A stretch of DNA of 64,000 bases from Tenggerimyces flavus. Lineage in GTDB: Bacteria; Actinomycetota; Actinomycetes; Propionibacteriales; Actinopolymorphaceae. The notes beneath the pieces are model-generated. The model was not told where the DNA came from. It ran no database searches and saw only the letters and a list, made by a program, of their open reading frames with translations. Both the position numbers and the translations under genes were made by a program. Below are positions 51,143 through 53,999 of the stretch, one piece after another; the stretch's first letter is position 1; every line of letters starts with the position of its first letter. Location of the stretch: contig NZ_JAFBCM010000001.1 in the NCBI RefSeq assembly GCF_016907715.1, positions 3,968,001 through 4,032,000 on the forward strand. The letters are read 5' to 3'.

Positions 51143-52039
51143 ATGGCGCGTGCGCGGATTTGTGTGGTGGGCAGTGCGAACATGGACCTCGTCGTGTTCG
51201 CCGAACGTTCACCTTCGCTGGGGGAGACCGTCTCGGGGTCGCGGTTCGTGACGATCCCCGGTGGCAAGGGCGCGAACCAGGCGATCGCCGCGGCGCGCGC
51301 CGGCGGCTCGGTCCGGATGGTCGGCGCGGTCGGCGACGACACCCACGGCGACCAGATCGTCGAGGTCATGGAGTCCGCCGGGGTCGAGACGACGGGCGTG
51401 TCCCGCGAGTTGGACGTGTCGACCGGCACGGCGCACATCCTGGTGGAGGCCAGCGGCGACAACTCGATCGTGGTGGTGCCGGGGGCGAACGCCTCCGTGG
51501 AGCCGACTTCTCATCAGCTCGCGGGGCTGAACGGGGCGCAGTACGTGCTGCTCCAGCTGGAGCTGCCGCTGGCCGCGGTGGAGAAGGCCGCGGTGACGGC
51601 ACGTTCTCGCGGTGTCAAGGTTGTGTTGACGCCGGCGCCGGCGCAGGACCTGCCCGCTTCGTTGCTGGACGCGGTGGACATCCTGGTGCCGAACGAGCAC
51701 GAGGCTCGCGTGCTGGCCGCGCAGCACGACGTGATGTCGGCCGGCATCGAGCTGTTGGAGAAGGTGCCCGACGTGGTCGTGACGATGGGATCGCGCGGCT
51801 CGTTGTGGCTGTCCCGGTCCGGCGCGCGCGAACACGTTCCCGCCCGTTCGACGAAGGCTGTCGACACCACCGCCGCCGGCGACACGTTCGTCGGCGCCCT
51901 GGCTGTCGCGCTGGGAGAGGGCAAGCCGATGCGCGAGGCTCTCGAATGGGCCACCGCCGCGGCGGCCCTGTCGGTCGAACGCGAAGGGGCCAGCACCTCG
52001 ATGCCGACGCGCGACGAGATCACCGCCGCGCTGGCCTGA
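51143..52039 (+). CDS. rbsK: Ribokinase-family sugar kinase
   Basis: A 298-aa PfkB-fold kinase. N-terminal VVGSANMDLVVFAERSPSLG and IPGGKGANQAIAAARAG match the ribokinase PfkB-1 motif, and the C-terminal DTTAAGDTFVGALAVAL carries the catalytic Asp and anion hole. It should phosphorylate D-ribose or a related sugar. TAGGTT ends seven bases before ATG 51143, so it may be leaderless. No ribose transporter is next to it. Its end overlaps by 20 bases the convergent partner gene of the MNIO cassette. Confidence 0.9.
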   Translation: MARARICVVGSANMDLVVFAERSPSLGETVSGSRFVTIPGGKGANQAIAAARAGGSVRMVGAVGDDTHGDQIVEVMESAGVETTGVSRELDVSTGTAHILVEASGDNSIVVVPGANASVEPTSHQLAGLNGAQYVLLQLELPLAAVEKAAVTARSRGVKVVLTPAPAQDLPASLLDAVDILVPNEHEARVLAAQHDVMSAGIELLEKVPDVVVTMGSRGSLWLSRSGAREHVPARSTKAVDTTAAGDTFVGALAVALGEGKPMREALEWATAAAALSVEREGASTSMPTRDEITAALA

Positions 52040-52364
52040 GTCGGTCCCAGATTCTTCGTCGCGGCAGCTCTTTGTGCTCGGCCAGCCAGCTGCCGAAGCG
52101 GTCGGCGTCCGGGCGGGCGCGCGTGTGCTGGTCCTTCGGGTGCTCGGCGGCGTAGCGGTCGAACAGCTCGGCGAAGCGGTCGCCCACCTGCTCGAACAGG
52201 TCCGGGCGGAGGCGGCCGACGATCCTCCTGCGCTTGTTCCGCAGCGTGGTCGCCGCGGTATCGAGGTGCCGTGGATCGAAGCCTGGGGGTGCAGTGCCGC
52301 CCGCGAGCAGGGCACGGAGGAGCTGGGCCTGCTGTGCGGCGAGCCGCTCGCGAGCGGTGGTCAC
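52020..52364 (-). CDS. Small partner protein of the MNIO (DUF692) cassette
   Basis: A 114-aa basic helical protein. The GTG start overlaps the MNIO stop (GTGA). The stretch TTLRNKRRRIVGRLRPDLFE and the following RFAELFDRYAAEHP recall the core of DUF2063 partner proteins (RxxVYRNN...ALVGEERF...AHPP), which recruit precursor peptides to MNIO enzymes. That similarity is my reading and is not verified. It has no signal peptide. As third gene of the cassette it is probably the substrate-binding subunit. Confidence 0.65.
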   Translation of the reverse strand: MTTARERLAAQQAQLLRALLAGGTAPPGFDPRHLDTAATTLRNKRRRIVGRLRPDLFEQVGDRFAELFDRYAAEHPKDQHTRARPDADRFGSWLAEHKELPRRRIWDRLRPARR

Positions 52365-53161
52365 CGCTTCACCGCCGTGCGGATGGCCGCCAGCTCGGCG
52401 GTGAGCTCGGCGTCGGGCGGGTAGTCGTCGTCGCGTTCGAGCAGTACCCCGGGCGGATTCGTCCTGGACCGCAGCTCCGCGAGCAGGTCGAGCACCTGCG
52501 GGACGATCGGATGCGCGTGCGTGTCGTGGTAGAAGCCGTCCCGTTCGATGCCGCCGCCGACGTGGACGTACGCGAGCCGCTCCCACGGGATCTCGTCCAG
52601 GAACTCGGTCGGATCCGTGCCGAGGTTGCGCGCGTTCGCATACAGGTTGGCGACGTCGATGATCAGCAGGCAGCCGGTACGTTCGGTCAGCTCGTGCAGG
52701 AACTGGGCCTCGGTCAGCTCGTTGTCCGGCCACTCCAGCACCGCGGCGACGTTCTCCAGTGCGAACGGGACGCCTACGATGGACTGGGTCAGTTTGACAT
52801 TGTCCACAAGGACGTTCAGGGCATCGCGGGTACGGGGCAACGGCATCAGATGCCCGGAGTCGAGGCCGTCCGCGCGCACGAAGCACACGTGGTCGCTGGC
52901 GACCGGCGCGCCAAGCTCCTCGGCGACGGTGGCGAGGTGCTCGACGCGCCGGGTGTCGACCGGCTCGGCTCCGCCCAGCGAGAGTGAGACCGCGTGCGGG
53001 AGGACGGGCAACCCGAGCCCGGTGAGCGACTCGGGCAGCTGTCCGACGTGCAGGTTCTCGGCGACGACCTCGACCCAGTCCACCCCCGGCAGCCGGGGGA
53101 TGGACAGGTCGAGCTCGGGCCGCCAGCCGATGCCGACGCCGAGGTCAGCCCCCGCCGCCAC
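52361..53161 (-). CDS. MNIO (DUF692) multinuclear non-heme iron oxidase
   Basis: A 266-aa TIM-barrel enzyme of the DUF692 family (MbnB, TglH, bufferin relatives), which oxidise Cys or other residues in peptides using a di- or tri-iron centre. The start LGVGIGWRPEL and ligand motifs are present: His56 in PHAVSLSLGG, Asp90-His91 in SDHVCF, Glu136 in LENV, Asp169 in IIDVANLYAN, His200 in YVHVGG, Asp213-His215-His217 in DTHAHP and Glu242 in LLERDDD. GTG 53161 is chosen because the family begins just there; it overlaps the TIGR04222 gene's Gly/Cys tail by 17 bases. The tail is the likely substrate (inference). Confidence 0.87.
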   Translation of the reverse strand: MAAGADLGVGIGWRPELDLSIPRLPGVDWVEVVAENLHVGQLPESLTGLGLPVLPHAVSLSLGGAEPVDTRRVEHLATVAEELGAPVASDHVCFVRADGLDSGHLMPLPRTRDALNVLVDNVKLTQSIVGVPFALENVAAVLEWPDNELTEAQFLHELTERTGCLLIIDVANLYANARNLGTDPTEFLDEIPWERLAYVHVGGGIERDGFYHDTHAHPIVPQVLDLLAELRSRTNPPGVLLERDDDYPPDAELTAELAAIRTAVKR

Positions 53162-53999
53162 CACAGCCACCCCCACCGCCGCAGCCGCCTCCGCCAGCGC
53201 AGCCGGACCCACCACCGTCGTGGCCGCCACCGTGACCACCGTCGCCGCCTGAGCCGAAGAAGCCACCGCCGCCGGCGTTGGACGGGAACTCGAGTGCATG
53301 CCCGATGGTCTGGTCCGGGTACGCGCCGAGCCCAGCGAACGCCACCGCGCCGGTGGCGCCGAAGAGCAGCGCCGTCTGCTGTCGGCGCGCTTGGCTCAGG
53401 GCGACTCGTCCTTCGTTCGTGTTCTGTGCGGGTAGGTACCGCTTCGTCGCCTTGAGGCTGACCAGGCAGGCGACCACGTTGAGCACGATCAGCAACGGCG
53501 TCATCCCGATCGGGCGGCCCTGGACGAGCAGCGTGACCAGCATCGTGAAGCCGGCCGCGAGCAGCGCCACGTACATCCGAAACACCGTGCGGAAGACGTG
53601 GCGCGCCCTGCTCCTCGGTGCGACCAGGCCGCGGCGTTCGAGCTCGACGGCCAAGGCCTGGACGTGCGCCGAGAGCCTGACCCGCCGGACGATCGACCAT
53701 GTCGACTTGCCCGTCGCCGCGGCGACCACGGCCGCCTCCAGCGGGTCGGACGGCTTCTCGCCGGTGGCGAGAACCTTCCCGTCGCTGCTCGGCCGCAGGA
53801 CTCCGCGTTCGACCAGCCCGGCGATCGCGGTCTCGACCACGCGGATGTCGCCGCCGGCCAGGTAGGCGACTTCGTGGACGTTCAGCGGCCGCTCGAGGTC
53901 GACCGGCTGTCGCTTCGGCAGGTACGCGACGGCGATCCATCCGACGCAGACGACGACCGGCACCGCCAGTAGAGCTAGGTAGATCTCCCAAGGACTCAT
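53145..53999 (-). CDS. TIGR04222-type membrane protein with Gly/Cys tail
   Basis: A 284-aa membrane protein. Helices lie near residues 7-27, 143-160, 166-183 and 209-226. Between the first and second is a cytoplasmic winged-helix-like region (RPLNVHEVAYLAGGDIRVVE). The tail from residue 243 is almost pure Gly with His and Asp, and has Cys267, Cys273 and Cys279 at exact six-residue spacing, each separated by AGGGG or GGGGG. This fits the TIGR04222 family. Coupling to the MNIO gene suggests the tail is post-translationally modified. It is first in the three-gene operon. Confidence 0.85.
   Translation of the reverse strand: MSPWEIYLALLAVPVVVCVGWIAVAYLPKRQPVDLERPLNVHEVAYLAGGDIRVVETAIAGLVERGVLRPSSDGKVLATGEKPSDPLEAAVVAAATGKSTWSIVRRVRLSAHVQALAVELERRGLVAPRSRARHVFRTVFRMYVALLAAGFTMLVTLLVQGRPIGMTPLLIVLNVVACLVSLKATKRYLPAQNTNEGRVALSQARRQQTALLFGATGAVAFAGLGAYPDQTIGHALEFPSNAGGGGFFGSGGDGGHGGGHDGGGSGCAGGGGCGGGGGCGGGGG

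Follow-up and report, generated by a model that had tools for sequence, protein, structure and literature searches.

A three-gene MNIO cassette of Tenggerimyces flavus whose putative substrate is a Gly/Cys tail on a resident membrane protein

The window, a 64,000-nucleotide stretch of the Tenggerimyces flavus genome, carries on its reverse strand a cassette of three overlapping genes between positions 52020 and 53999. These encode a 284-residue membrane protein (53145..53999) matching NCBIfam TIGR04222.1 at 118 bits against a cut-off of 43, an MNIO (DUF692) enzyme (52361..53176) matching PF05114 at 270.3 bits against a cut-off of 25, and a basic protein of 114 residues (52020..52364) with no direct Pfam match. 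The initial annotation had proposed all three genes, including the basic 114-residue product and the GTGA through which the third gene, starting with the GTG at 52364, overlaps the MNIO stop codon, and each of these points was borne out. Of the profile matches that it had anticipated, those to TIGR04222 and DUF692 lie above their cut-offs, and DUF2063 is recognized only in relatives of the third protein. An Rfam search of the window returned no match, and no dedicated protease was seen in the cassette.

The MNIO gene had further been described as beginning inside the coding sequence of the Gly-rich tail of the membrane protein. The ATG at 53299 was rejected as its start because the PF05114 match in the open reading frame from that codon opens only at residue 54, 2 bp past the TIGR04222 stop; in many Amycolatopsis loci the MNIO domain likewise starts 2 bp after this stop. 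Given where the domain opens, translation probably begins at one of the nearest start codons, the GTGs at 53161-53176, so that the gene would indeed start within the tail coding sequence, with an overlap of about 16-31 nt and not 155 nt.

The residues H102, H137, E182, D215, H246, D259, H261 and E288 of the MNIO (numbered on the open reading frame from 53299) are intact and are invariant in 71 relatives; by comparison with MbnB and TglH, we take the iron ligands to be among them. A Foldseek search with the model of a natural MNIO-partner fusion gave TglH, MbnB and 3bww as the best matches. With the BufB equivalog NF050167 the enzyme scores 192.9 bits, under the cut-off of 310. A distinct MNIO subfamily, matching PF05114 at ~370 bits, occurs without this type of partner (G269:C34:20832, G231:C22:83144 and G212:C1:4387705).

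DUF2063 is matched by 9/32 relatives of the 114-residue protein (best E 3.7e-5), and the corresponding domain is all-helical in the fusion model (whole-model mean pLDDT 92.9). A PDB sequence search with the partner profile gave only chance matches, none of them to NGO1945 (3dee) or TglI. The protein lies beside the MNIO in 132 of 135 MNIO loci, two of the three exceptions being cut by contig ends (L158 and L112) and the third lying near one (L072). Of the 135 loci, 64, mostly from Streptomyces, encode it as a fusion with the MNIO, and every partner match in 297 genomes adjoins an MNIO match. Linkage and the matches of its relatives mark it as an obligate DUF2063-like MNIO partner, near-universal in the surveyed group. 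It is DUF2063-like without a direct Pfam DUF2063 match, lacks an RRE and is encoded right after the MNIO, placing it among the PME-type 2 partners.

The closest relatives of the MNIO come from Amycolatopsis, with best segments 72-84% identical, and neither an MNIO nor a TIGR04222 protein above cut-off occurs in the seven remaining genomes of the window's family. The cassette was probably gained horizontally, its nearest relatives lying in Amycolatopsis. A neighbourhood shared by the window and the donors was looked for and rejected, as no flanking gene is common to the window and the Amycolatopsis loci and hemQ is absent from the window. Elsewhere hemQ, encoding a coproheme decarboxylase-like protein, is a near-constant neighbour of the module (L037-L116 and L117-L224), lying near it in 41/46 Streptomyces and 26/34 Pseudonocardiaceae named loci. 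A gene msrB is often near the module in Pseudonocardiaceae, and a peptidyl-tRNA-hydrolase-like gene in Streptomyces.

The AlphaFold2 model of the TIGR04222 protein (mean pLDDT 85.6) has three long transmembrane helices, at residues 3-25, 129-160 and 167-186, with a cytosolic helical or winged-helix-like region (residues 41-122) between the first two, short helices at residues 195-236 and a disordered Gly/Cys tail at residues 241-284. A fourth hydrophobic stretch (about residues 207-222) is broken in the model and only marginally hydrophobic, which makes the four helices originally assigned to this protein doubtful and three the probable number. Foldseek found no significant match for the model, and a PDB sequence search with the TIGR04222 profile returned only low-complexity and weak winged-helix matches.

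Cys residues occupy positions 18, 178, 267, 273 and 279 of the protein, the last three in the tail (53148..53279), which we regard as the putative MNIO substrate region from its sequence, tail statistics and co-conservation. The exact six-residue spacing claimed for Cys267, Cys273 and Cys279 is confirmed. In shuffle statistics on 120 non-redundant TIGR04222 tails, which ignore relatedness among the tails, the distance between Cys residues is mostly 4-9 with a mode of 6 (124/430 versus 31 in shuffles), CC or CxC occurs twice against about 122 expected, Cys-Gly is enriched (73% versus 48% by chance) and Ser precedes Cys more commonly than by chance. The 6-6 spacing of the window protein is therefore typical of the family. 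The regular phasing that had been noticed survives as the family mode and not as a fixed rule: it is a preference within a range of about 4-9, and perfectly regular spacing is seen in only 11/120 tails. The three 18-nt units encoding the window tail differ in their codons, including at synonymous positions, and so are not simple identical repeats; a simple slippage origin of the tail is disfavoured by these differences. Raw counts of the DNA pattern C-GGGG-C-GG were dropped as evidence since reading frames other than that of the tail also match it.

Our survey of TIGR04222 and PF05114 covered 297 genomes of the class; the TIGR04222 loci were fetched and their tails scored. An MNIO is present in 45/45 genomes with a Cys-tailed TIGR04222 protein (44 with an MNIO match plus G067, whose MNIO runs off a contig at L158), versus 18/43 surveyed genomes without such a tail. 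The initial annotation had made its proposal depend on this co-conservation of tail Cys and MNIO, and the proposal withstands the check. When the genes are placed on a tree of 108 TIGR04222 domains and G067 is taken to have an MNIO, the association of Cys tail and MNIO is stronger than independent evolution would give (50/0/32/26; simulation p 0.0015-0.0035), and the adjacency of the two has a p of 0.001 or below. The six Cys-tailed genes that do not adjoin an MNIO (L120, L122, L135, L198, L202 and L221) have one elsewhere in the genome. Cys-free Gly tails are MNIO-adjacent in 1/21 genes, and the Gly tails found without an MNIO are mostly Cys-free, many ending in ...GGGGD. Amycolatopsis usually has two Cys-tailed TIGR04222 genes before the MNIO, and in Labedaea rhizosphaerae four such genes stand in tandem upstream of a single MNIO (L069:2729-5957).

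We also fetched MNIO-partner loci not adjoining TIGR04222, and at 11 of these another protein bears the same Gly/Cys tail. The tailed proteins are single-transmembrane mini-proteins of about 83-119 residues (L228, L230, L231, L233, L235-L238 and L243) and a soluble protein of 452-476 residues without a transmembrane segment (L239/L256 and L241, 46% identical). On the MNIO tree these loci are dispersed in separate places among enzymes linked to TIGR04222, indicating that the scaffold changed while enzyme, partner and tail were kept. As unrelated proteins share this tail, what travels with the enzyme is the tail rather than the membrane protein. We tentatively suggest, at slightly less than even odds, that the Gly/Ser/Cys tail serves as a portable tag facing the cytosol, which one MNIO-partner pair modifies on several unrelated resident proteins; substrates bearing it would include TIGR04222 proteins, the mini-proteins, the soluble protein of about 450 residues and perhaps a DUF2207-type protein. 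The last is encoded at L249:1494-2774 (G283), has a long Ser/Gly/Cys end and lies distant from the MNIO-partner pair of its genome.

Taken together, co-conservation, linkage, natural fusions and the recurrence of the tail on unrelated scaffolds favour the core of the original proposal, that an MNIO with a small partner acts on the C-terminal tail Cys of a resident membrane protein. We put a probability of roughly 0.7 on the cassette being a module of the MNIO/RiPP kind in which the MNIO and its partner oxidatively modify these Cys. The MNIO and the DUF2063-like partner would oxidize Cys within a low-complexity Gly/Ser/Cys C-terminal tail, carried here by the TIGR04222 membrane protein and in other genomes by the single-transmembrane mini-proteins or the soluble protein, for all of which the tail would serve as a portable substrate tag. 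The tail would face the cytosol, where the enzyme is, and peptide export would then be unnecessary. We infer the tail Cys to be the residues modified; the product may, as a guess, be a thiooxazole-type or related Cys modification with a metal-binding or redox role at the membrane face.

The topology of the tail decides whether it functions outside the cell, as in metal buffering, or inside. In its simplest reading, charge bias places the TIGR04222 tail probably in the cytosol, on the same side as the enzyme: K/R density is 2.0-2.4 per 10 residues after the first and third transmembrane helices versus 0.5 in the loop between the second and third. This probable placement disagrees with the periplasmic reading of an in silico study of MNIO gene clusters (PMC12452194; Microb Genom 2025). 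Were the fourth hydrophobic segment to span the membrane, for which it is borderline in the window protein, the tail would lie outside, and after modification it could act there as a bufferin-like buffer of copper or other metals. We consider this alternative unlikely. It gains from the topology allowed by PMC12452194, from the copper binding of bufferins and oxazolins, and from the marginal hydrophobicity of segment 4 in the window protein, which some Amycolatopsis relatives exceed. However, segment 4 is non-hydrophobic in most TIGR04222 relatives, with a family median score of 4.0 versus about -0.6 to -1.5 for the three transmembrane helices, a home-made score whose scale values and position weights were set ad hoc, so that only the contrast between segments is usable. 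The charge bias puts the region after the third helix inside, and the tails on the other scaffolds are likewise predicted to be cytosolic, the mini-proteins having 0-1 K/R before their transmembrane segment and 4-7 in Arg-rich flanks after it. No copper or other metal-resistance family is found among the 25 most frequent neighbour families listed, making a metal-buffering role a guess.

A slightly less probable alternative, again unlikely, keeps the enzyme pair as a modification system and gives it another, unseen substrate, the Cys tail being merely associated with it through a role such as iron binding or membrane anchoring. Such a reading would accommodate the MNIO loci that lack a tail: 14/72 in the class sample have only a tailless TIGR04222 protein and 8 more have no tail-encoding reading frame at all, the 14 and some of the 8 forming a Streptomyces clade with the MNIO-partner fusion beside hemQ. 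It would also accommodate two MNIO-less genomes of one genus (G149 and G260) whose Gly/Cys tails sit on other membrane proteins. Against it, the Cys-tailed genes lie in MNIO genomes in 50/50 cases, the same tail turns up next to this enzyme pair on scaffolds unrelated to one another, and the loci that were examined showed no other conserved small precursor. A scan of the tailless Streptomyces loci for Gly/Ser/Cys windows found no Cys-rich substrate, and the Cys that are conserved in the tailless paralog sit in hydrophobic stretches. The tailless Streptomyces loci, the tails without an MNIO and one locus at which an MNIO adjoins a Cys-free Gly tail (L144) make the link between tail and MNIO strong and not absolute. 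That the Cys are functionless products of neutral drift in a Gly-repeat tail is very improbable: the tail is of low complexity and one substitution is enough to make a Cys codon of a Gly codon (GGC to TGC), but the co-conservation with the MNIO already speaks against drift, Cys-free tails dominate where the MNIO is absent, the tails avoid CC and CxC and prefer a spacing of 6 and Cys-Gly, and the tail units differ at synonymous positions.

Among the individual cases, an intact Streptomyces MNIO-partner fusion with no Cys tail nearby is found at L121, L123, L207, L209 and L210, and further Streptomyces fusion loci of this kind are L213, L216-L220, L222 and L224. The tails of the two MNIO-less genomes are located at the C-terminus of a DivIVA-domain membrane protein (L272:1491-2459, G149) and of a small membrane protein (L273:1171-1563, G260).

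Known MNIO enzymes belong to pathways for small peptide natural products. If the module does modify Cys of a resident protein, MNIO chemistry extends to ordinary protein modification, and a portable tag would make it a general system of post-translational protein modification as opposed to a pathway for secreted peptides. Its reach would be much of the Actinomycetota, Streptomyces and Amycolatopsis among them, and compact, testable constructs are offered by the tails that swap scaffolds and by the natural fusions of enzyme and partner.

The cassette resembles the bufferins and Buf_EGKCG oxazolins, which are made by an MNIO with a DUF2063-RRE partner, in having an enzyme of the BufB-like branch and candidate Cys followed by Gly. 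It differs from them in that there is no Sec signal peptide, the candidate substrate forms the tail end of a larger, polytopic membrane protein, the 114-residue partner has no RRE and no copper genes were seen nearby; the combination of a Sec-signal precursor with a DUF2063-RRE partner that defines bufferins is thus not found here. With TglHI (3-thiaglutamate) and MbnBC (methanobactin) the cassette shares the MNIO fold and a partner-dependent enzyme, but the substrates of those systems are small free peptides, whereas the putative substrate here is carried as a tail by a membrane protein or a soluble one. Precursors of the heterocycloanthracin type, with repeated Cys-Xaa-Xaa (PMC2674419), resemble the cassette in that a low-complexity C-terminal region of repeated Cys is the substrate for modification, here putatively. 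They are bacteriocins matured by a different enzyme system, which is not known to include an MNIO.

The closest precedent is PMC12452194, the one paper on this very pairing that a literature search turned up. In that study, TIGR04222 proteins make up 40% of the Cys proteins that lack a signal and are encoded ahead of MNIO genes; many have Cys in C-terminal Ser/Gly-rich regions, probably periplasmic, and subsets are likely MNIO substrates, a role that this in silico study predicts for Cys-tailed TIGR04222. The idea of the tail as an MNIO substrate is therefore already published. Small PME-type 2 partners were predicted there for at least 10% of the clusters with TIGR04222. These clusters agree with the present cassette in the C-proximal Cys within a Ser/Gly tail on TIGR04222, the MNIO and the small PME-type 2 partner, whose model A is a 115-residue Saccharothrix protein against 114 residues here. 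In contrast to those clusters, the partner here is practically universal, fusions are common, the tail is portable and it is probably cytosolic. The available portions of PMC12452194 mention no test of Cys-by-MNIO co-conservation, no MNIO-partner fusions and no tails on other scaffolds; what is new relative to them is the co-conservation test, the universality of the partner, the fusions, the portability of the tail and the challenge to its topology.
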